From Anaerolineaceae bacterium (lineage in GTDB: Bacteria; Chloroflexota; Anaerolineae; Anaerolineales; Anaerolineaceae): a DNA stretch of 64,000 bases. The notes under the pieces are model-generated. The model searched no databases and was not told where the DNA came from. It saw nothing but the letters and a program-made list of their open reading frames with translations. The stretch is taken from contig JAENZI010000002.1 of assembly GCA_016841365.1 (NCBI GenBank), positions 186,001-250,000 of the forward strand, written 5' to 3'. A program made the position numbers and the translations under genes. The stretch's first letter is position 1, and the number at the start of each line of letters is the position of its first letter. This document shows positions 22,353-33,051 of this stretch, piece after piece.

Positions 22353-22727
22353 TCAGTCACCGAAAAAGAGTTCTTGCCAGATCTCCCATTTTTCGATTTC
22401 ATCGATCACAGCATCTTCAGCTGGGGGTTGGGTGACTACCGGGTTGGCTGGCTGCATGATGATGATGGGGATATCCCCATCCTGAACCATGGCTGCTTCT
22501 TCTCGCGCCCACTTTTCAACAGCCTCATCCGATTTAGTAAACTCAAGATCAGCCTGCAAAGCGTCCCGCGTAGCCACCAGGTCAGCGTATCTTTGCTTCA
22601 GGTCTTTCTCCTGGCTGCGCAACTTTGAGAGCAGCACCATGCGCTGGTTAAAATCTAAGAGCATGAACACCAATACGATGACCAGCACAACCAGAATGAT
22701 TCGCTTGTCTTTCAGGATCTTTTTCAT
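22353..22727 (-). CDS. FtsB/DivIC-like septum formation initiator protein
   Basis: A 124-residue single-pass membrane protein: short basic N-terminus, one membrane helix (residues 10-25), then a coiled coil (RSQEKDLKQRYADLVATRDA) and the segment EKWAREEAAMV that matches the family pattern of FtsB/DivIC. These proteins link the divisome with FtsL and FtsQ/DivIB. A Pro-rich acidic tail ends the protein. AGGGAA lies just before the ATG. It is a single-gene unit between the tRNA and a terminator. Confidence 0.85.
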   Translation of the reverse strand: MKKILKDKRIILVVLVIVLVFMLLDFNQRMVLLSKLRSQEKDLKQRYADLVATRDALQADLEFTKSDEAVEKWAREEAAMVQDGDIPIIIMQPANPVVTQPPAEDAVIDEIEKWEIWQELFFGD

Positions 22728-23088: not shown

Positions 23089-24405
23089 TTGAAAAATAAA
23101 ACCCGAACTTACATATGGCTCGCTTTTTATTTTATCGTGGTGTTTATCCCACTAATTCTGCTGATGATTTTGCCTCGTCCTGAGGGAAGAGAGTTTTTAC
23201 GTGAAGTATCCGTCGCTTTAGGCTTTTTGGGCATGGCTTTACTCGGCCTTCAGACGATACCGACATCACGCCTGAAATTCTTCACAAAAGCCTTTCCGAT
23301 GGACACACTCTACACGCTCCATCACAGGCTATCCATCCTAACCGTTTTGATCATCCTCATTCATCCGATTTTGTTGTTCATCAACAACCCGGCAACGCTG
23401 CAATTATTGAATGTGTTTACTGCGCCCTGGCGTGCCAAAGCTGCTGTGATTTCGCTGGTTGCAATGTTCCTGTTAATCGTTTCATCGGTATGGCGGGAAG
23501 TGATGAAGCTCAAGTATGATGTCTGGCGCTGGATCCATGATGGTTTGTCGTTTTTGGCGATCGGCTTGGCTTTATTCCATATGTTCAAGGTCAATTATTA
23601 CATGTCCCTCACCTATCAAAAGGTGCTTTGGCTGAGTCTGACAGGGATTTGGCTTGCCATCATTCTCTACATCCGGGTTGTCCGCCCAATTATCATGCTC
23701 AAAACACCCTATAAGATTGTGAAAATTGTGGAAGAACGCGGTAATTGTTGGTCACTATATCTTGAACCGGATGGACACGAAGGTTTGGACTTTGAAGCAG
23801 GGCAATTTGCCTGGATCACAACAGAATCGCCCTTCATCTTCAGGGAAAACCCGTTTTCATTTTCAACCAATGCGGATCACGATGATGATTACATTGGCTT
23901 TACGATCAAAGAGCTGGGCGATTTCACCAGCACGATCAAAGATATGAAACCAGGACAGACCGTTTATGTTGATGGTCCCTTTGGCAATTTCAGCATGGAT
24001 GAGCATGAACACAAAGATATGGTATTCATCGCAGGCGGTATCGGATCAGCACCGGTGATGAGCATGTTGAGAACGCTTGCGGATCGTCAATCTGAAGCAA
24101 AGATAGTGTTCTTATATGGTAACCCGACCTGGGACTCGATCATCTATCGAGAAGAGCTGGAAGAAATTGATAAGGCAGACAATATTAAAATTGTCCACGT
24201 TCTTGAGCGGCCGCCTGAGGGGTGGGAGGGTGAACGGGGCTTTATCAACACCGAAATTTTAAAGCGGCATCTGCCTGAGAATTACAAGGATTCGACATAC
24301 TTCATGTGCGGACCATTACCGATGATCAATGCCGTAGAAGCTTGTTTTAAAGAGCTGCACATCCCCGCGACCCATGTGTTTTCAGAACAGTATGAGATGG
24401 CATAA
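23089..24405 (+). CDS. NOX/ferric-reductase-like membrane flavocytochrome
   Basis: A 438-residue membrane protein that should move electrons from NAD(P)H through FAD and two haems across the membrane. The N-terminal half has about six helices and two His pairs with identical spacing (H78/H92 and H150/H164), the H-x13-H layout of ferric reductase and NADPH oxidase domains. The C-terminal half is a ferredoxin-reductase module: RENPFSFST (FAD), GGIGSAPVMSMLR (NAD(P) phosphate loop) and YFMCGPLPMI. The start is TTG, 6 nt after AAGGAG. The final acceptor (ferric iron, oxygen, other) is unknown. A membrane peptide gene follows at 11 nt. Confidence 0.9.
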   Translation: MKNKTRTYIWLAFYFIVVFIPLILLMILPRPEGREFLREVSVALGFLGMALLGLQTIPTSRLKFFTKAFPMDTLYTLHHRLSILTVLIILIHPILLFINNPATLQLLNVFTAPWRAKAAVISLVAMFLLIVSSVWREVMKLKYDVWRWIHDGLSFLAIGLALFHMFKVNYYMSLTYQKVLWLSLTGIWLAIILYIRVVRPIIMLKTPYKIVKIVEERGNCWSLYLEPDGHEGLDFEAGQFAWITTESPFIFRENPFSFSTNADHDDDYIGFTIKELGDFTSTIKDMKPGQTVYVDGPFGNFSMDEHEHKDMVFIAGGIGSAPVMSMLRTLADRQSEAKIVFLYGNPTWDSIIYREELEEIDKADNIKIVHVLERPPEGWEGERGFINTEILKRHLPENYKDSTYFMCGPLPMINAVEACFKELHIPATHVFSEQYEMA

Positions 24406-24416
24406 AAGGAGATAGA

Positions 24417-24515
24417 ATGGATATTCAACATTGTGTCGAACGCTGGTTACTTATGGCTACTGTGATATTGGTTGTGGTTCTGACCGTGCTGTTTGCCCTC
24501 GTGCAGGGAGGGTAG
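24417..24515 (+). CDS. 32-residue single-pass membrane peptide
   Basis: A short gene starting at ATG 24417, preceded by AAAAGGAGA at a good distance. It encodes a polar N-terminus (MDIQHCVERW), a single hydrophobic helix rich in Val/Leu (residues 11-29) and a VQGG end. It lies 11 nt after the flavocytochrome and before the terminator, so it is in the same transcript. It may be a small subunit or stabiliser of the flavocytochrome, by analogy with small membrane subunits of other redox complexes; this role is inferred. Confidence 0.7.
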   Translation: MDIQHCVERWLLMATVILVVVLTVLFALVQGG

Positions 24516-24554
24516 CCAGTAATCTTATCTGGACAATTCAATCGTGTTAAACAT

Positions 24555-24585
24555 AAAGGGACTACCTCACGAGGCAGTCCCTTTT
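24555..24585. terminator. Bidirectional terminator between flavocytochrome and cytochrome c genes
   Basis: AAGGGACT-A-CCTC pairs with GAGG-C-AGTCCCTT, with one A/C mismatch and a 2-nt apex. TTTT follows on the plus strand and TTTATG on the minus strand. Confidence 0.8.
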
Positions 24586-24615
24586 GGGTTTCTATTAAGA
24601 AGATTCTTGCTTGGC

Positions 24616-25740
24616 TTATTCAGGCCGGGTCAGGCTTGCCAGGTCAACTGAAATGGCTTCTGAGAGGTTATCCATCGTGTCATACATCACCTGGATAAGA
24701 TAGCGTGCGTTATGCATAAAGCCACCCGGATCTTCTGCCACAAGATGATAATTGTAGGTCGCTCTTACAAGCCTGGGCGTCCAACTCTGGTATTGGTTGC
24801 CGAAGTTGATTTCGCCATCGTCTGCTTCGCCGTTGCCATTCGGATCGACATACCAATAGGGAAACTGCGCGGCATATAAGATGGGTTCACCGATCACATC
24901 GGCAGCGTAGGCTTGAATGGAGTCATAGAGCATTTCGTGAACAGTGATCAACTCACCGTAGATGCCCTCGGTGGTGTCGCCATCGCCGTCAAAATCGGGT
25001 GTATCATCAACACGGATTGAGCGTAAGTCGCCAAGATCGCTGACGGCGGGATGGCAGGCAGCACAATCGCTGGCTGTAATTTCAAGCGAGTGCGGATCGT
25101 GACAATCGACACATTGCTGATAGTCTTCTACATGTGGATAGTAGCCAATGTAGTCCTTACCCGGGAATTCGTATCCGACCTGGACTTCGCTGCCGTAGCG
25201 GACAGCACCAGCGACTTTATAATGGACGTTAATGAATCCAAGATCTTCATTCACCTCATCATCAGTCAGGTCAACGGTTGCATCTGCGACAGCAACACCT
25301 GAGCGGGTGCCCTGGTGGCATTCAGCACAATTGACGCTTGATTCGAGGGTGTCAACGGTATCGCCAGAGGGGAAGTAAGCAATTTCCTTTTCATGTGCGG
25401 AAGGGTTGTGGCACACAAAACAACTGACCACAGACCCAATTTCTGCTGCTGCGTCGACAATCTGTGGCTCGCTGCCATCTTCACCGAGGTAGTCTAAGTA
25501 ACCGTATGCGCTGTGGCATTTAGCACAGTTTGCTGGAACTTCAGCCGGATCGTCTTCGTCCCAGTGGACAAAGGCTTCTGCCTCCGCATCAGCGTGACCA
25601 GATTCGTCCCATTTTGCACTGATCGCCTGGACCGTTTCCGGTCGGGGTTCGGGTGGCAGGACAACCTGCCCAATCAGGATGACGGCCAATCCCCCCAGAA
25701 AAAAGAAAATAATGAGTAAAGGCCAAACGTATTTTTTCAT
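24616..25740 (-). CDS. Membrane-anchored pentaheme c-type cytochrome
   Basis: A 374-residue exported protein with an N-terminal membrane anchor (residues 5-27) and five CXXCH haem sites at about 72-76, 107-111, 138-142, 210-214 and 226-230. Additional His residues could be distal ligands. The last 140 residues are haem-free, with Asp/Gly-rich loops (DFDGDGDTTEG, DPNGNGEADDGE) that look calcium-binding, and a segment with His and Tyr (FPYWYVD). It does not match a standard tetrahaem NapC/NrfH. It probably carries electrons outside the membrane; the partner could be the convergent flavocytochrome, although they are separate transcripts. Confidence 0.88.
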   Translation of the reverse strand: MKKYVWPLLIIFFFLGGLAVILIGQVVLPPEPRPETVQAISAKWDESGHADAEAEAFVHWDEDDPAEVPANCAKCHSAYGYLDYLGEDGSEPQIVDAAAEIGSVVSCFVCHNPSAHEKEIAYFPSGDTVDTLESSVNCAECHQGTRSGVAVADATVDLTDDEVNEDLGFINVHYKVAGAVRYGSEVQVGYEFPGKDYIGYYPHVEDYQQCVDCHDPHSLEITASDCAACHPAVSDLGDLRSIRVDDTPDFDGDGDTTEGIYGELITVHEMLYDSIQAYAADVIGEPILYAAQFPYWYVDPNGNGEADDGEINFGNQYQSWTPRLVRATYNYHLVAEDPGGFMHNARYLIQVMYDTMDNLSEAISVDLASLTRPE

Positions 25741-25886: not shown

Positions 25887-27038
25887 ATGAAATTTTCTAA
25901 GTTCTTCTTTGTGTCAGGTTTATTGTTACTGCTGGCGGCTTGTGTTCAACCTTCAGCGGCGCTTTCTGATACATTGAGGGGGGATACTGCAACCCAACCC
26001 ATTGAATTTCAAGCGACAACGCTTGTGCCTTCGATAACGTCGACGATAACCCATACGCCGACTGCAACTGCAACACGCACCCCTAACCCAACCGCAACGC
26101 GGACAGCAATCTCTCCGACACCTACGCCAACCATCCCAACGGTGACGACATTCATTGCAGATGAATTGAGCCCGATTGTGACCCCCGTGGGTTATTTGGC
26201 GGATACCTGCAAATACCTTGAAAACCGGTGGGGGCGTGGGAAGAGCGAACCTGGCACGATTGTTGTACCTATAATGTTCCACTCGATCGCCAAACCTGGG
26301 AGGGTGATCAGTGACGCAACGACTATCTCTACAGAATACTTCGAATTTTTCATGGCATATGCAGAGGAACTGGGCTTTTCAACGATCACGATGGATGAAC
26401 TGGTTGGATTTTTGACAGAAAACGAAAAAATACCTGAGCGGTCAATGCTTCTCATTCTTGATGACCGCCGCCCGGGTGTAACGGAATTATTTATGCCCTA
26501 CCTTGAAGCAAACGATTGGACTTTGACGCTGGCCTGGCCAACGACCGCAGGCACAAATGAGGAACTCTGGGCTCGCATGGAGTCTTTGGCTGAATCAGGA
26601 CGGCTGGATGTGCAATCACATGGGCATGATCACATCTATATTCAGGATTACACACCTTTTGAAGAGATTGAAGAAGAAATTTACCGTCCAATCGAGGTGA
26701 TCCAGGCGCATTTCGGCACAACACCTTCGGCAATCATCTGGCCTGGCGGTAATTTTAATGATGAGGCGATCCAGTTGGCGCAAGAAGCAGGGTTAAGGTT
26801 TGGGTTCACCGTCTATTCCCGGGGACCGCTGATGTTCAACTGGATTCCGCTGGGTGCGGCAGAGATGGAGATGGATGCAACGTTATACGTGCTGCCCCGT
26901 TACTGGTCAACGGCGGCTGATGTCGCCCTTAATCAGGCGGTTGCCATCAGCGAAGCAGCGAAGCAGGCGGCAAATGGCGTCAAGGCTGACGAACTGTATT
27001 ATTTAGAACACTATTGCCCGGCTTTCAAAAGGGATTAA
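25887..27038 (+). CDS. Polysaccharide-deacetylase (NodB-fold) lipoprotein
   Basis: A 383-residue exported lipoprotein with lipobox LLAAC (Cys19). A Thr/Pro-rich linker of about 60 residues leads to a NodB-type domain from residue 120 on. Motif 1 is LLILDDRRPG (metal Asp) and motif 2 SHGHDH (metal His pair), with PGG later. These enzymes remove acetyl groups from chitin, peptidoglycan or other N-acetylated glycans. No Shine-Dalgarno is obvious before the ATG. It starts a tandem run: the first of three M23 paralogues begins 4 nt after its stop, so it probably modifies the same wall or glycan those proteins act on. Confidence 0.88.
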   Translation: MKFSKFFFVSGLLLLLAACVQPSAALSDTLRGDTATQPIEFQATTLVPSITSTITHTPTATATRTPNPTATRTAISPTPTPTIPTVTTFIADELSPIVTPVGYLADTCKYLENRWGRGKSEPGTIVVPIMFHSIAKPGRVISDATTISTEYFEFFMAYAEELGFSTITMDELVGFLTENEKIPERSMLLILDDRRPGVTELFMPYLEANDWTLTLAWPTTAGTNEELWARMESLAESGRLDVQSHGHDHIYIQDYTPFEEIEEEIYRPIEVIQAHFGTTPSAIIWPGGNFNDEAIQLAQEAGLRFGFTVYSRGPLMFNWIPLGAAEMEMDATLYVLPRYWSTAADVALNQAVAISEAAKQAANGVKADELYYLEHYCPAFKRD

Positions 27039-27042
27039 GTCA

Positions 27043-28566
27043 TTGAAAATCAAAAAATTTTTATTAATACTGATTTTAGGCGTAGGCGTTTTGACCGGGT
27101 GTTATAAACCCGGGTCAACAATGGCGCCCTGGCAGGTTTCAATGGCAGGTTCTCAGGACGGGCAGCAAGTGACGGCAGATCCGCAGGCTAACAATTCTTC
27201 CGGGTCATCAGCAGTGTTAGGTTTTGTTTCTACACCAACCCCCAATGCGCCGATTGTCCTGCCTACACCTCGCACGGAAACGCTGACATACACTGTGCAG
27301 AGCGGAGATACCCTGCGCAAAATCGCCCAATCCAACCAGGTGTCGGTTTCGAAAATCAGTGCACTCAATCAAATTGAAAACCCCGACCTGATTGAGGTGG
27401 GACAGGTGTTATTGATCCCGCCTGCGACCTACGACGCAACTGCGCCGGCATTCAAGATCATTCCGGATTCAGAGCTGGTTTTCAGCCCCTCAAACGCCGC
27501 CTTTAATGTGGTTGACTTTGTCAAAACCCAGGACGGTTATTTGGCGTCCTATTCTGAAGAAGTCGATGGCGTGATATTGACCGGTGCAGAGGTGGTTGAG
27601 CGGGTCGCGGTCGAATATAGTGTCAACCCACGCCTGCTGTTGACCGTCCTGCAATATCAGGGCCGCTGGGTGACGGATAAGAACCCCCCCGAGGAGACAC
27701 GCATCTACCCGATGCGCTATTATGATGCTTATCGTGACGGCCTCTATAACCAGCTTGGATGGGCTGCCAATCTGCTAAATGAGGGGTATTACCTGTGGAA
27801 GATCAATGCCATCAGCATCTGGACCCTATCCGATAGCAGCATTGTCAAAGTCGATCCGACCATCAACCCTGGCACGGCAGGCGTCTTGAACCTGATGCGC
27901 TATCTGACTGTGGGATCGGATTGGGAAAGGGCAATTTCCGAAAATGGGATTTTCGCCACTTATTTTGGTTTCTTCGGCTATCCTTTTGACGCCGCCTTTG
28001 AACCGGTCATCCCGGAAAATCTTTCGCAGCCAACACTGGAGTTGCCCTTCGAAGTCGGCTCGGAATGGTCTTACACTGGCGGGCCCCATGGGGGCTGGAA
28101 CACAGGGTCAGCCTGGGCAGCCATTGATTTTGCACCCCCTGGTGATGCATTGGGCTGTTTCCCGAGCGAGGCATGGGTCACCGCTTCAGCGCCCGGCCAA
28201 ATCGTCTATTCAGACCATGGCGCAATAATTCAGGATTTGGACGGGGACGGCATCTGGCAAACAGGCTGGTCGATCCTTTACATGCACATCGACTCTGCCG
28301 AACGGGTGCAGGCTGGCAGTTACCTGGCTGAAGGTGACCGGATTGGGCACCCTTCCTGTGAAGGCGGTTTCTCGACGGGGACGCATTTGCATATTGCGAG
28401 GCGTTATAATGGAGAGTGGATCGCAGCAGATGGTGATCTGCCGCTCGTTTTGGGCGGATGGACGGCTGTCGGCTACGGTGTTGAATATAATGGGTATTTG
28501 GTTAACGGTAATGTGACTTTGGAGGCATGGAATGGGCGCGCGCCGATCAACGCCATCAAGCGCTAG
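27043..28566 (+). CDS. LysM / SLT-like / M23A (LasA-type) lipoprotein, paralogue 1
   Basis: A 507-residue lipoprotein (lipobox LTGC) with TTG start and AGGGA 8 nt upstream. One LysM (YTVQSGDTLRKIAQ, about residues 85-130) should bind glycan. The middle (about 180-310) has NPRLLLTVLQYQ and NPGTAGVLNLMRYL, which echo the soluble lytic transglycosylase fold but lack a clear catalytic Glu. The C-terminal peptidase domain has H349 and D362 (13 apart) and HLH at 448-450. This is the ligand spacing of M23A (LasA/beta-lytic) enzymes, not the H-x3-D of M23B. An Asp-rich loop (DLDGDGIWQTGW) lies inside the domain. It likely cleaves peptide cross-bridges of cell walls outside the cell. Confidence 0.87.
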   Translation: MKIKKFLLILILGVGVLTGCYKPGSTMAPWQVSMAGSQDGQQVTADPQANNSSGSSAVLGFVSTPTPNAPIVLPTPRTETLTYTVQSGDTLRKIAQSNQVSVSKISALNQIENPDLIEVGQVLLIPPATYDATAPAFKIIPDSELVFSPSNAAFNVVDFVKTQDGYLASYSEEVDGVILTGAEVVERVAVEYSVNPRLLLTVLQYQGRWVTDKNPPEETRIYPMRYYDAYRDGLYNQLGWAANLLNEGYYLWKINAISIWTLSDSSIVKVDPTINPGTAGVLNLMRYLTVGSDWERAISENGIFATYFGFFGYPFDAAFEPVIPENLSQPTLELPFEVGSEWSYTGGPHGGWNTGSAWAAIDFAPPGDALGCFPSEAWVTASAPGQIVYSDHGAIIQDLDGDGIWQTGWSILYMHIDSAERVQAGSYLAEGDRIGHPSCEGGFSTGTHLHIARRYNGEWIAADGDLPLVLGGWTAVGYGVEYNGYLVNGNVTLEAWNGRAPINAIKR

Positions 28567-30151
28567 GGAAAGGTACTACCAGCGACGCTTTAAGCGGATG
28601 GTCAGGCTGTTAATCATTTCGCTTGTGCTGGCGATGCTGGTGTGCGGCAGTATTGTTTATCCCGTGCTGGCGCCGGGCGCTGAAGAAAGCGTCAGCCTGG
28701 CTCAGGTTTCGACGCCTGTACCGACAGCGACGCTTGAAGTGGCAACGCCCGTGGTGACCGAAGCCCCTGCGGAGATTGTTGAACATAGACCTTCTGAACC
28801 CTTGCCAACGCAAGGCCAACTTGTCCCGCCCAGTGAAGACACGAATATTTTATATTACACTATTGCCGGCGACAGTCTTTCTATGGTCGCGGTGCGTTTT
28901 GGTGTGGATATGAACGCTATTACCTCACCGACGCCCATAGACCGAAAGGGTTTGCTCAACCCGGGTCAGTTGTTGATCATCCCCAACAACTTAGATGAGA
29001 CCAGTTCGAGCCATAAACTTCTGCCGGATAGCGAAGTCGCCTATTCGCCTTCAACTATCGATTTTGACGTTCAGGCTTATGTGGATGAGGCGGGCGGCTA
29101 TCTTTCGGAGTACCGGGAGTATTTGGCATCCACAGGCTGGACTTCTGGTGCGGATGTGATCAACCGGATCGCTTTGGAATATTCTGTCAATCCAAGGCTG
29201 CTACTGGCGTTTCTTGAATTCAAATCCGGGTGGGTTTTTGGATATCCCGACCCAGCAGATACGGTTGCCCTGACCTTTCCAATGGGGCATGTCAACGTTA
29301 TGAAAAAGAACTTGTACCTCCAGTCCGCCTGGTTTGCCAGTATGGTGATGGAAGGGTATTACGGCTGGCGGGAAGGACGCCGTTTAGTGGTGACTTTTCA
29401 GGATGGCGAGGTGCTGCGGCTGGCGCCGCAGTTGAACGCTGGCTCAGTGGGGATGATGAATGCTTTTACCTATCTCTATGAATATGACCAATGGGCTTAT
29501 TTGCTGTATGGTGAGGAGAATTTCTTTGAATTCTACGAATCGATGTTCGGCAACCCCTGGGTACGCGCCCAGCAAGTCGAACCATTGATCCCTGTTGATA
29601 CAGTTCAGCCTGAGATGATTTTGCCCTTTGAGGTCGGTGATGTATGGGCTTTCACAGGCGGACCCCATGCAGCCTGGAGTTCGGCGGATGTCTGGGCGGC
29701 GCTGGATTTTGCCCCGGCAAGCGGCGTGACGGGATGTTTCATTTCTGATTCGTGGGTGGTTGCTGCGATGGCAGGGCGGGTGATCCGTTCAGGTAACGGG
29801 GTGGTGGTAATCGACCAGGATGATGACGGCCATGAGCAAACGGGTTGGACACTGCTTTATTTGCATATTGCCGACGAAGACCGCGTGCCAGTAGGGACAT
29901 GGGTTGAGGTTGGCGACAGGATCGGTCATGCCTCCTGCTTGGGCGGGCGTTCAACCGGGACACACGTGCACCTGGCGCGGCGCTACAATGGCGAATGGGT
30001 ACCTGCGGATGGCCCTTTGCCATTCACTTTGAGCGGGTGGGAGGCAAAAGCCGGAACAATTGCATATAAGGGGTGGTTGGTCAGGGGAAGCGAAATAATT
30101 TATGCGAACACTGCCAGCACATACGAAACGCAACTCACACGAGAAGAATAA
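28532..30151 (+). CDS. LysM / SLT-like / M23A (LasA-type) membrane-anchored protein, paralogue 2
   Basis: A 539-residue paralogue anchored by an N-terminal helix (about residues 23-50) rather than a lipobox. Its start overlaps the previous gene by 35 nt and has GGAGG 6 nt upstream. A divergent LysM lies near residue 107 (YTIAGDSLSMVAVRFG). In the middle domain, NPRLLLAFLEFKSGW keeps a Glu-Lys-Ser-Gly pattern closer to transglycosylases, with NAGSVGMMNAFTYL later. The M23A ligands are H379, D392 and HVH at 478-480. The loop DQDDDGHEQTGW matches the one in the neighbours. All metal and catalytic positions appear intact. Confidence 0.86.
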   Translation: MGARRSTPSSARERYYQRRFKRMVRLLIISLVLAMLVCGSIVYPVLAPGAEESVSLAQVSTPVPTATLEVATPVVTEAPAEIVEHRPSEPLPTQGQLVPPSEDTNILYYTIAGDSLSMVAVRFGVDMNAITSPTPIDRKGLLNPGQLLIIPNNLDETSSSHKLLPDSEVAYSPSTIDFDVQAYVDEAGGYLSEYREYLASTGWTSGADVINRIALEYSVNPRLLLAFLEFKSGWVFGYPDPADTVALTFPMGHVNVMKKNLYLQSAWFASMVMEGYYGWREGRRLVVTFQDGEVLRLAPQLNAGSVGMMNAFTYLYEYDQWAYLLYGEENFFEFYESMFGNPWVRAQQVEPLIPVDTVQPEMILPFEVGDVWAFTGGPHAAWSSADVWAALDFAPASGVTGCFISDSWVVAAMAGRVIRSGNGVVVIDQDDDGHEQTGWTLLYLHIADEDRVPVGTWVEVGDRIGHASCLGGRSTGTHVHLARRYNGEWVPADGPLPFTLSGWEAKAGTIAYKGWLVRGSEIIYANTASTYETQLTREE

Positions 30152-30316
30152 CTTAAACATTTTGGGGCTGCTGCAGTCATTTTCTTAGAAATAATCAAAA
30201 CTGGACTTTTTTCACCTCTCGGAGTATGCTTGGATGTCTTGAGTCTGAATAGATGGAAAGACTTGGATTAATTACCCGAAAATTTCTAATCTCTAAATAG
30301 TCAGACTCTCTCAATT

Positions 30317-31780
30317 ATGCTTAGAAAATTAGCGCTACCCCTCATCTTACTTAGTTTGATCCTTGCGGCGTGTTCGCCATCGATGCAGCCAACCATGATC
30401 TTACCGACGAACGCAACAGAGGCACCCCCTGAAATCCCGGAAATGACCCCGTTCCCGACCCGGCCGGCTTATGAACCCGGCCATCTTGTGGACTATACCG
30501 CGCAATCTGGTGATACGCTGCCTGCGCTGGCAGCCCGTTTTAACACCTCAGTGGAAGAGATTTTAGCAGCAAATACCTTCATCCCAAGGGAAGCAACCAC
30601 CATGCCCCCCGGTATGCCGATGCAAATCCCGATCTATTACCGAGCATTGTGGGGTAACCCTTACCAGATTTTGCCCGATGCAGGGTTTGTGAACGGGCCG
30701 GATGCCGCTGCTTTTGACACAGCCGCATTTCTGGCACAGCAAGATGGATGGCTGCGGAATTACAGCGCCTGGGCTTTCAGCGGCACCCGGACTGCTGCGG
30801 CAATTATCGATTATGTGGCAATCCAATACTCAATCAGCCCCAAATTGCTGATCGCCTTGCTGGAGTATCAGAGCGGCGCATGCTCAGTTGCTGACCTGGA
30901 TGAGCAATTAGAAAGAAATATCTTAGGCCTTGAATCAAGCTATTGGACGGGGGTTTACCTTCAGCTTTCCTACGCCTCGAATATTTTGAATGATGCCTAT
31001 TACCGCTACCGGCAGGGTGATTTGCTGGAATTTGAGCTGGCAGATGGCTCCTTGGTCCGCCCTGACCCGTGGCAGAACGCTGCCAGTGTGGCGATGCAAT
31101 ATTTCTTCTCCGAGGTGGAGGATGTGGACGGCTACCTTTACGCCGTCGGACCGGATGGGTTTGCCCTAACCTATGCCAATTTATTTGGTGATCCATGGAC
31201 GATCGAACCGCATATCCCGGGGTCTTTAGCCCAACCGGCAATGCAATTACCATATAAAAACGATATTGGCTGGGCGTTCACCGGCGGTCCGCATACGGCT
31301 TGGGGGAGTATGGAACCCTGGGCTGCCCTGGACTTTGCCCCACCTTCCGAAGTCACAGGCTGTTATCCGACCTCACTGCAGACCGCAGCCGTGGCGGATG
31401 GTGTGGTTGCCAGAGTAGGCGATGGCTTGCTTGTTCTTGATTTGGATGGTGACGGGGATGAGCGCACCGGGTGGGTCGTGTTTTATCTGCATATCGCTGA
31501 GAAAGGACGTGTCGCTAAAGGATCCGTTGTCAGCGCAGGTGACCCGCTAGGGTATCCCTCGTGTGAGGGTGGCCGCTCAACAGGAACGCATATCCATATC
31601 GCCCGCAAATATAACGGCGAGTGGATGATTGCAGACGGGGTTTTGCCCTTTGTTCTTTCTGGTTGGCGTCCCATCCGGGGGGATGCGCAATATAAAGGTT
31701 GGCTGGTCAAAGATGATGTGATGGTTTTAGCAAACACCAACCCCGATAATAAGAGCACAATTCCTATCGATCTCGAATAA
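30317..31780 (+). CDS. LysM / SLT-like / M23A (LasA-type) lipoprotein, paralogue 3
   Basis: A 487-residue lipoprotein (lipobox LAAC). LysM is near residues 58-105 (YTAQSGDTLPALAARF). The middle domain carries SPKLLIALLEYQSG and NAASVAMQYFF. The M23A ligands are H326, D339 and HIH at 425-427, with loop DLDGDGDERTGW. A gap of 165 nt without a gene precedes it, and no Shine-Dalgarno is visible before the ATG, unlike paralogue 2. A strong terminator follows. The three copies differ enough that they are old duplicates, not a recent amplification. Confidence 0.86.
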   Translation: MLRKLALPLILLSLILAACSPSMQPTMILPTNATEAPPEIPEMTPFPTRPAYEPGHLVDYTAQSGDTLPALAARFNTSVEEILAANTFIPREATTMPPGMPMQIPIYYRALWGNPYQILPDAGFVNGPDAAAFDTAAFLAQQDGWLRNYSAWAFSGTRTAAAIIDYVAIQYSISPKLLIALLEYQSGACSVADLDEQLERNILGLESSYWTGVYLQLSYASNILNDAYYRYRQGDLLEFELADGSLVRPDPWQNAASVAMQYFFSEVEDVDGYLYAVGPDGFALTYANLFGDPWTIEPHIPGSLAQPAMQLPYKNDIGWAFTGGPHTAWGSMEPWAALDFAPPSEVTGCYPTSLQTAAVADGVVARVGDGLLVLDLDGDGDERTGWVVFYLHIAEKGRVAKGSVVSAGDPLGYPSCEGGRSTGTHIHIARKYNGEWMIADGVLPFVLSGWRPIRGDAQYKGWLVKDDVMVLANTNPDNKSTIPIDLE

Positions 31781-31800
31781 AGATTGTTGTTAAATAATCA

Positions 31801-31828
31801 CGGCACCCGGTTTCAGGGTGCCGTTTTG
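31801..31828 (+). terminator. Intrinsic terminator closing the M23A run
   Basis: CGGCACCC/GGGTGCCG, 8-bp stem, 7-nt loop, then TTTTGTG. It lies between convergent genes. Confidence 0.88.
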
Positions 31829-31848: not shown

Positions 31849-33051
31849 TCAGTTTAGAAATTGCCAGGGGTTGACGGGGTAACCTTCGAGACGTAACTCA
31901 AAATGGAGGTGCGGTCCGGTGGAATTGCCCGTACTGGCCATCGATGCAATCAACTGCCCTTTCTGGACGTTAGAGCCGCAGGGCACAAGGGTGCCATCCA
32001 TCAGGTGGGCGTAGAAGGACTGCCAACCGCGGTCGTGGTCGATCACAATCAGGTTGCCATAGCCACGGTCTGACCAGCCGGAATAAACCACAACGCCCGA
32101 GTCGGCTGCGTAGATGGGACTGCCAAAATCACCGTCAAAGTCCAGGCCATTGTGGATTGGTGGGTTGTAGTCGTAACCGGAGAGCCAGGTTGCCGTTGTA
32201 GGCCAGGTGAAGGTGCCCGTGCCGACATCGCCATATAGGATGCCGCCGCAAGCACCAGGGCCAAGATAGGAATTGCCTGAGGCAGGGTTATCACGTGCCA
32301 CAACCCAGGCGACCGAAGGGCGGGTGCCGCCAGGAACAACCAGCATCTTGCCGGGTTCAATGTTCGGGTTAGCATAATCCCCGACAACGGCTGGGTCCAG
32401 CTCGTTGAGGGGGTAGTTGACGATCACATCCGGGTCAACGCCGTAAAAAGAAGCGACACCATTCAGACCTTCGCCTTCTGACCACCTGTGATAGACGCCA
32501 TTTTCAGGCAAGATGACCAGTTCGATCCCCGGGACCAATCCATCCGGTGTGTCGCCAATGATGTAGCGGTTAGACCACAGGACGGTTTCAGGTGTCAGGC
32601 CGAATTTTTCAGCGATGCCAAAGATCGTGTCACCTTGCTCAACCACGTAGCTTCTGATCTCATTGCTTGATTCAGATGTAGCAACAGTTTCAGATTCAAT
32701 TTCCGGGTTCCGAACTAATCCGCCGCCTAAGCCTGCTGTTGAAAATACAGGTGTGGAGACGGTCTCTGGCAAGGGAACCACAGTCGATGTCGGTGATTGC
32801 GTCTGGACTTCAGATGAAGCCACGCCCCGTTGTGCAATCAGCGATCCGATACCCCAGACAGCCAAAACCACTACAATAAATGTGAGAAGATAAAATCCGA
32901 TTTTAAGGATGCGGGAATCTTTTAATCCACCGGATTTTGAGGTCTCGTTTGCTTCTCTGATTGGGGTTTCTTGGATATCGTCTGTGATTAATTCGGTTTG
33001 ATCTGGCTGGGATGGATCCTCAAGCCCGGTATTTTCAAGGTTTTCACTCAT
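31849..33051 (-). CDS. LysM-M23B peptidase, membrane anchored
   Basis: A 400-residue protein with an acidic cytoplasmic N-terminus of about 45 residues, one membrane helix (about 50-70) and a Ser/Thr/Val-rich linker. Two LysM-like segments follow; the first is YVVEQGDTIFGIAEKFG. A canonical M23B domain follows with HNGLD (H-x3-D) and GPHLHFE (HxH). Such enzymes are peptidoglycan DD- or LD-endopeptidases used in growth and division. It converges with the three M23A paralogues but has the classical M23 layout, so it serves as an internal contrast to them. Confidence 0.92.
   Translation of the reverse strand: MSENLENTGLEDPSQPDQTELITDDIQETPIREANETSKSGGLKDSRILKIGFYLLTFIVVVLAVWGIGSLIAQRGVASSEVQTQSPTSTVVPLPETVSTPVFSTAGLGGGLVRNPEIESETVATSESSNEIRSYVVEQGDTIFGIAEKFGLTPETVLWSNRYIIGDTPDGLVPGIELVILPENGVYHRWSEGEGLNGVASFYGVDPDVIVNYPLNELDPAVVGDYANPNIEPGKMLVVPGGTRPSVAWVVARDNPASGNSYLGPGACGGILYGDVGTGTFTWPTTATWLSGYDYNPPIHNGLDFDGDFGSPIYAADSGVVVYSGWSDRGYGNLIVIDHDRGWQSFYAHLMDGTLVPCGSNVQKGQLIASMASTGNSTGPHLHFELRLEGYPVNPWQFLN

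Follow-up and report, generated by a model that had tools for sequence, protein, structure and literature searches.

Three consecutive genes of an Anaerolineaceae bacterium (assembly GCA_016841365.1, contig JAENZI010000002.1) probably encode membrane-tethered peptidoglycan endopeptidases that remodel the cell's own wall and do not serve as a weapon, a reading to which we assign a probability of about 0.6. The genes lie in the window analyzed here computationally, a stretch of 64,000 nucleotides covering positions 186,001 to 250,000 of the contig. P0002, P0003 and P0004 are tandem paralogues, termed A, B and C, and both B and C share 36% identity with A in an alignment of the trio. All three follow the same layout: the chain begins with an anchor, continues through a single LysM and a middle domain roughly 200 residues long, and ends in an M23 peptidase. 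A preliminary description of the window had proposed such a run of three genes, and the open reading frames, Pfam matches and trio alignment confirm it. The features of the trio are as follows.

27043-28566, plus strand: paralogue A (P0002), a predicted lipoprotein with LysM at residues 83-126, a pseudo-lysozyme-like domain at about 130-325 and an M23A domain at about 328-495
27442-28038, plus strand: middle domain of A, with Gln206 at the column of the SLT/GH73 catalytic Glu
28015-28512, plus strand: M23A domain of A, with H349, D362, H415, H448 and H450, the DxDxDG loop D398-G403 and the cysteines C372/C439
28532-30151, plus strand: paralogue B (P0003), with a hydrophobic anchor without lipobox, a sub-threshold LysM, Lys at the Glu column and an M23A domain
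29003-29617, plus strand: middle domain of B, folded alone with a predicted local distance difference test (pLDDT) score of 96.6
29594-30091, plus strand: M23A domain of B, from Pfam and the trio alignment
30317-31780, plus strand: paralogue C (P0004), a predicted lipoprotein (LAAC) with LysM, Gln at the Glu column and an M23A domain
30653-31243, plus strand: middle domain of C
31220-31717, plus strand: M23A domain of C, from Pfam and the trio alignment

The reading frame of P0002 starts with TTG, and the frame of B overlaps that of A by 35 bases as called. A fourth frame on the same strand, P0001 (25887-27038), precedes the trio and is discussed below.

By its site residues and, for A, by its modelled fold, the C-terminal peptidase belongs to MEROPS subfamily M23A, closer to LasA, beta-lytic protease and pseudoalterin than to M23B. 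Pfam reports Peptidase_M23 in all three proteins, with P0004 scoring 26.4 bits, just below the cut-off of 28.7. In P0002 numbering, H349, D362, H415, H448-x-H450, C372, C439 and D398/D400/D402 are invariant in the aligned trio, and H349 and D362 stand 13 residues apart (H-x12-D) in each protein. The D-x-D-x-D-G loop is presumably akin to a calcium-binding-type loop. Conservation was assessed in 247 full-length relatives, a set that leaves out 17 partial ones. The metal-site residues are kept in 246 (H349), 246 (D362), 247 (H415), 244 (H448) and 245 (H450) of these, the cysteines in 246 (C372) and 247 (C439), and the loop residues in 232 (D398), 238 (D400) and 241 (D402). Of the 246 rows having both His and Asp, 239 place them exactly 13 residues apart. 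Because the site residues are kept in nearly all relatives, their occurrence in the trio is not due to chance. The top sequence matches in the PDB by phmmer are beta-lytic protease, pseudoalterin and LasA. The model of full-length A (pLDDT 91.1, predicted template modelling score 0.86) finds the same three enzymes as its six best Foldseek chains. VIA scored this model at Z 19.7 against LasA, 19.7 against pseudoalterin and 19.1 against beta-lytic protease, with the next listed entry, DipM, at 12.8. Only A was folded whole, and for B the middle domain was folded alone. The assignment to M23A in the preliminary description, made from the 13-residue His-Asp distance and a later HxH, is hence borne out by the relatives and by the LasA-type fold matches of the A model. 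From these fold matches, the H, D and HxH residues would be expected to lie near one another. The Asp-rich loop it had noted does occupy the same place in all three proteins. The spacing also agrees with the H(x)12D that a review gives for LasA (PMC9662197). Site residues are lost in L103:4003-5415, L079:7133-8971 and L055:8833-10278, which might be pseudo-peptidases or reflect alignment or assembly faults.

The sequences support anchoring of the window trio, with later shedding possible. A lipobox is found in P0002 (LTGC) and P0004 (LAAC); P0003 has an N-terminal hydrophobic segment without lipobox, so that the membrane or lipid anchor proposed earlier takes two forms. Across the order, a lipobox occurs in 61/82 copies of A, 47/81 of B and 57/67 of C, counts that used start codons as found and in which the class without lipobox includes wrongly called starts; B copies elsewhere are often lipoproteins. 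LysM exceeds the Pfam cut-off in P0002 and P0004 and reaches 18.5 bits against a cut-off of 20.9 in P0003. LysM structures match residues 76-129 of the full-length A model in VIA.

The middle domain is recognized by no Pfam family when 75 members are scanned at E up to 1. Glucosaminidase (PF01832) was reported for a single member at E 0.032, nine other families for one member each at E of 0.042 or above, and SLT (PF01464) for none. Its profile matched no PDB sequence at E up to 10, and what NCBIfam and PHROGs matched was weak and scattered, involving at most 3 of the 75 members (best E 0.011 and 0.0054, respectively). An AlphaFold2 model of the middle domain of B, built from the 75-row alignment, reached the pLDDT given above. 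The top nine Foldseek matches are g-type lysozymes, the GH73 autolysin E and a staphylococcal phage tail-tip protein, all at E of 0.22 or above. VIA, which re-scored only Foldseek's own picks, placed LytB (GH73) best at Z 7.7, where values below 8 may represent merely a common arrangement. The fold assignment is therefore based on consistency and on no one score. Judged by title, all 50 VIA rows listed are lysozymes, lytic transglycosylases, glucosaminidases, a related chitinase, phage or bacterial lysins, or a phage tail tip. The middle domain thus appears weakly but consistently lysozyme/GH73/SLT-like. The SLT-like domain suggested at the outset stands as a lysozyme-superfamily-like domain and not as a match to the Pfam SLT profile. 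The NPRLL segment cited in its favor is present in P0002 and P0003, with SPKLL in P0004.

The middle domain is probably a pseudo-lysozyme that lost its canonical catalytic Glu. Reference profiles were built from 27 SLT and 13 GH73 domains of Chloroflexota genomes, with 3 of 30 SLT loci dropped for lying too near a contig end. Alignment by hhalign gave P-values of 5e-4 (SLT) and 2e-3 (GH73) and probabilities of 31% and 14%. The first core helix aligned gap-free in both cases, for SLT as KYAVNPALVQAVIKAES against EYSVNPRLLLAFLEFKS. The catalytic Glu of SLT and of GH73 falls on position 206 of P0002 in the two separate alignments. This position is Gln in A, Lys in B and Gln in C, and among the 247 relatives Q (165) is followed by R (27), E (17), K (9), H (9) and others. 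The tree used to count changes has 246 rows and leaves out L105, which is the same protein as L184 met twice. On this tree, position 206 requires 43 changes and Glu versus not-Glu 7, compared with 1, 1, 0, 3 and 2 changes for H349, D362, H415, H448 and H450. A catalytic residue would not drift as position 206 does, which argues for the pseudo-lysozyme. The glycan-cutting activity assumed in the preliminary description is probably wrong, since the Glu column reads Q/K/Q in the window and is unconstrained in the family.

The layout had been called rare, which fails within the Anaerolineales. The family occurs in each of the 41 genomes sampled from the order, 36 of which have at least three matches, in a survey that scored up to 36 candidates per genome and counted fragments as matches. 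Among cultured strains of the order, Anaerolinea thermolimosa (L052), Ornatilinea apprima (L084) and Longilinea arvoryzae (L036) have three copies apiece. In a sample of 400 genomes of the phylum, scored with at most three candidates each so that three is a ceiling, 48 match at E 1e-30. These comprise 35 genomes of the order, 12 of 20 from other orders of the class (11 of them matching only once) and a single genome out of the other 345; among the non-matches listed, which are sorted by kinship, there is no member of the order. Gene order was read from 80 fetched Chloroflexota loci, the best 80 of at least 558 relatives (at least 594 stretches), which favor close relatives. Sixty-five of these continue for 5,200 bases or more past the point where the first copy starts; 51 show the order A-B-C and 7 the order A-B-B-C. 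In L035, L043, L046, L047, L053, L055 and L064, B is followed by an additional B-type copy before C. A tree of 95 of the 247 rows, on which the orthogroup claims are based, places first, second and third genes in groups A, B and C with local Shimodaira-Hasegawa-like support of 99, 98 and 99. In a larger tree, clade A (support 40) takes in single-copy proteins of other orders, and the A/B/C labels used for gene order come from that tree. Outside the window, the same genome carries a fourth copy (G000:C5:8570-10120), placed in group B by the 95-row tree. From these sequence relationships we propose that duplication in the ancestor of Anaerolineales, or earlier, gave rise to the triplet. In the two other genomes of the window's genus, G168:C5:858310-859827 and G337:C31:5634-7151 each have one TAG inside the first copy; the former probably reflects a start-side extension of the match, as a slightly shorter match has no TAG. 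A phage or mobile origin was considered and rejected, as the 12 pattern stretches in viral contigs include no relative and six phage records match the LysM part only, with plasmids outside the search.

Beyond the class, the middle domain is found with a changing peptidase. Its profile alone matches 33 of 151 genomes of the phylum, 17 of which lie outside the class. One protein was read from each of 14 of the 17 (L175-L188), and HxH follows the middle domain in 14/14. The spacing is that of M23B, H-x3-D, in 13, while L184 reads H-x12-D in sequence. Pfam finds Peptidase_M23 in all four of the proteins scanned (L175, L181, L184 and L188). The window genome itself has a weak middle-domain match (E 1.7e-4) in the C-terminal part of an Amidase_3 protein, L115. 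The domain accompanies peptidoglycan cutters and the cutter changes, given that M23A, M23B and amidase partners are all seen. We tentatively suggest, at somewhat under even odds, that this Chloroflexota pseudo-lysozyme, not previously described in the literature searched, acts as a plug-in module through which wall peptidases recognize the strand or are regulated, with the cutter behind it swapped between M23A in Anaerolineae and M23B in other classes, and that the Anaerolineales trio forms a core, possibly hetero-oligomeric, wall-opening complex in a group whose members are known to form multicellular filaments. The M23B-type proteins L175, L181 and L188 all end in Golvesin_C. The amidase L115 (1225-3261, minus strand, contig C16 of the window genome) joins Amidase_3, a Golvesin_C in its middle and a C-terminal middle-domain-like stretch; the motif of this stretch is INPRVLLAIMQAEQ, which has Glu at the canonical column when aligned by eye.

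For the trio, we infer a division of tasks along the chain. The anchor would keep the enzymes on the side of the wall that faces the membrane, and LysM would grip glycan chains. The lysozyme-like middle domain might act as a second adapter that recognizes glycan or stem peptide and positions the strand, allowing the zinc M23A domain to cut the peptide cross-link. The three copies might have taken separate jobs, for example in elongation, septum splitting and filament breakage. Core wall enzymes with divided labor are suggested by the trio order being kept across the taxonomic order. Chloroflexota are described as having unusual envelopes and multicellular filaments (PMC13319060). Few enzymes of Chloroflexota wall remodelling are named in the literature searched, and the conserved triplet supplies candidates.

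Several observations weigh against own-wall remodelling by a tethered endopeptidase with a silent lysozyme fold. Two matches only were found in 5 of the 41 genomes of the order, 7 of the 65 loci depart from the gene order (four with a broken or partial copy, three with fewer copies), and group A of the 95-row tree does not include the first copies of L106 and L107. Peptidase-site residues are lost in 3 of the 247 relatives. The structural scores of the middle domain (VIA Z below 8, Foldseek E above 0.1, hhalign 31% and 14%) are individually insufficient for a lysozyme fold, and the 50 Foldseek rows listed, though mostly of the lysozyme kind, include two glutathione transferases, a phage neck protein and a viral spike. 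Glu is present at position 206 in 17 of the 247 relatives; 16 of the 17 belong to clade B, and several have the full ESGW motif. The conserved acid two residues upstream, at position 204, could be catalytic (E in 231, D in 11 and Q in 5 of the 247). The middle domain might then still cleave glycan through another acid such as E204, making the proteins two-activity hydrolases as is phi29 gp13, which has two activities. The restriction of position 204 to E, D or Q in all relatives, with 14 changes on the tree, and the retention of Y250, N275 and P196 in 246 each would fit such an activity, as would the full ESGW motif of some clade B members. P0002 in the window has Gln at 204 though, and lying two residues before the canonical column the position should face elsewhere on a helix. 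Together with the drift of the canonical column, this makes an active middle domain unlikely in our view.

Judged by subfamily only, the trio would be expected to lyse other cells, as the M23A enzymes described in passages of the review are bacteriolytic or elastolytic (PMC9662197). The trio was accordingly first interpreted as a surface machine for lysing neighbouring or dead bacteria, which would bind glycan, cut it and then cut peptide. The relatives LasA and beta-lytic protease are described as lytic or virulence enzymes (PMC9662197, PMC9783410), and several hydrolases adjoin at the locus. Neighbour lysis is disfavored because the proteins are anchored and because the trio is widespread and positionally conserved: it is found in each genome sampled from the order, its genes keep their sequence along the locus, and its three orthogroups have been maintained. 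With the glycan-cutting residue lost in addition, we regard neighbour lysis as quite improbable. Even less credible is that the M23A domains process surface proteins, such as those of a sheath or outer layer, with peptidoglycan not being the substrate. In favor of it, elastin is a substrate of pseudoalterin and LasA helps to break it down (PMC9662197), and multilayered envelopes occur in some Chloroflexota (PMC13319060). LysM and a lysozyme-like domain in the same chain point instead at peptidoglycan, and the same middle domain precedes M23B elsewhere and is weakly matched at an amidase C-terminus. We thus retain tethered endopeptidases of the cell's own wall as the favored explanation.

The surroundings of the trio include two further features of interest.

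25887-27038, plus strand: P0001, a putative lipoprotein polysaccharide deacetylase (CE4/PgaB-like), an optional neighbour, based on PF01522 and alignment with BpsB/PgaB
31800-31824, plus strand: terminator-like hairpin of 9 pairs with a T-rich tail, readable on both strands, just 3' of C

P0001 matches Polysacc_deac_1 (PF01522; 3.9e-17, 62.8 bits) and aligns with BpsB/PgaB deacetylases. A DD pair and SHGHDH are visible and aligned with BpsB, with the usual DDG reading DDR. A deacetylase was said to start the run, which holds for the window locus, where it may be co-transcribed with the trio. As an essential member it is rejected and lies outside the conserved unit, because a deacetylase is upstream on the same strand in only 28 of 70 loci with room and within 300 bases in 17. 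The hairpin likely marks the end of the transcription unit, a suggestion drawn from its position after C and not from the number of such sites (9 found versus 7.0 expected in shuffles). A promoter scan stayed at shuffle level, with 6 found versus 6.5 expected. Convergent with the trio, 31849-33051 (minus strand) encodes a membrane protein with LysM and ordinary M23 (PF01551, 2.9e-31), so that the common version adjoins the unusual one. About 3 kb upstream, 22353-22727 (minus strand) encodes a small DivIC/FtsB-like septum formation protein (PF04977, 3.4e-9) with a homologue in 7 of the 80 fetched loci. A ferric-reductase-like flavoprotein (plus strand) adjoins a multihaem cytochrome (minus strand) at 23089-25740, with homologues in 13 and 14 of the 80 loci.

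Each part of the trio belongs to a known kind. LasA, beta-lytic protease and pseudoalterin are released enzymes that are not known to carry LysM. The trio shares with them the H-x12-D-type spacing with HxH, the fold (Z 19-20) and a C(E/N)GG-x-S(T/S)G(T/P)H segment, and differs by being anchored, by carrying LysM and a lysozyme-like domain, and by a DxDxDG loop that the three printed alignments with these enzymes do not display. GH73 (LytB, AtlE), SLT/GH23 and g-type lysozyme are the best structural matches of the middle domain, with the helix of the Glu column gap-free. Unlike the lysozyme superfamily, the middle domain has no Pfam match and the catalytic Glu is lost in most members. A lysozyme-like domain is combined with M23 in phi29 gp13, and PrgK has a LytM domain beside other wall-lytic domains. 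Both resemble the trio in having a glycosidase-like domain and M23 in one chain, and 3csq and 8s0u are among the structural matches of A. The combination of lysozyme and M23 as such is already found in phi29 gp13. This phage tail protein is an M23B enzyme with H-x7-D (PMC9662197), whereas the trio is cellular, anchored, M23A and pseudo-lysozyme. By title and abstract start, the literature gave no description of the trio or of the middle domain, subscription literature being mostly outside the search. The listings and passages covered likewise did not mention an anchored LysM/pseudo-lysozyme/M23A layout, an ordered Anaerolineales triplet or an exchange of M23A for M23B. If the module reading is true, the pairing of one adapter with two subfamilies of peptidase would illustrate module exchange cleanly. 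EnvC and NlpD are LytM factors with degenerate M23 that work in division (PMC9662197), and share with the trio a wall-enzyme fold retained without catalytic residues. The trio would be their mirror image, with the peptidase site intact and the glycosidase-like site lost. With a wall-glycosidase fold kept as a catalytically inactive adapter next to a working peptidase, the arrangement of EnvC and NlpD would then be reversed.

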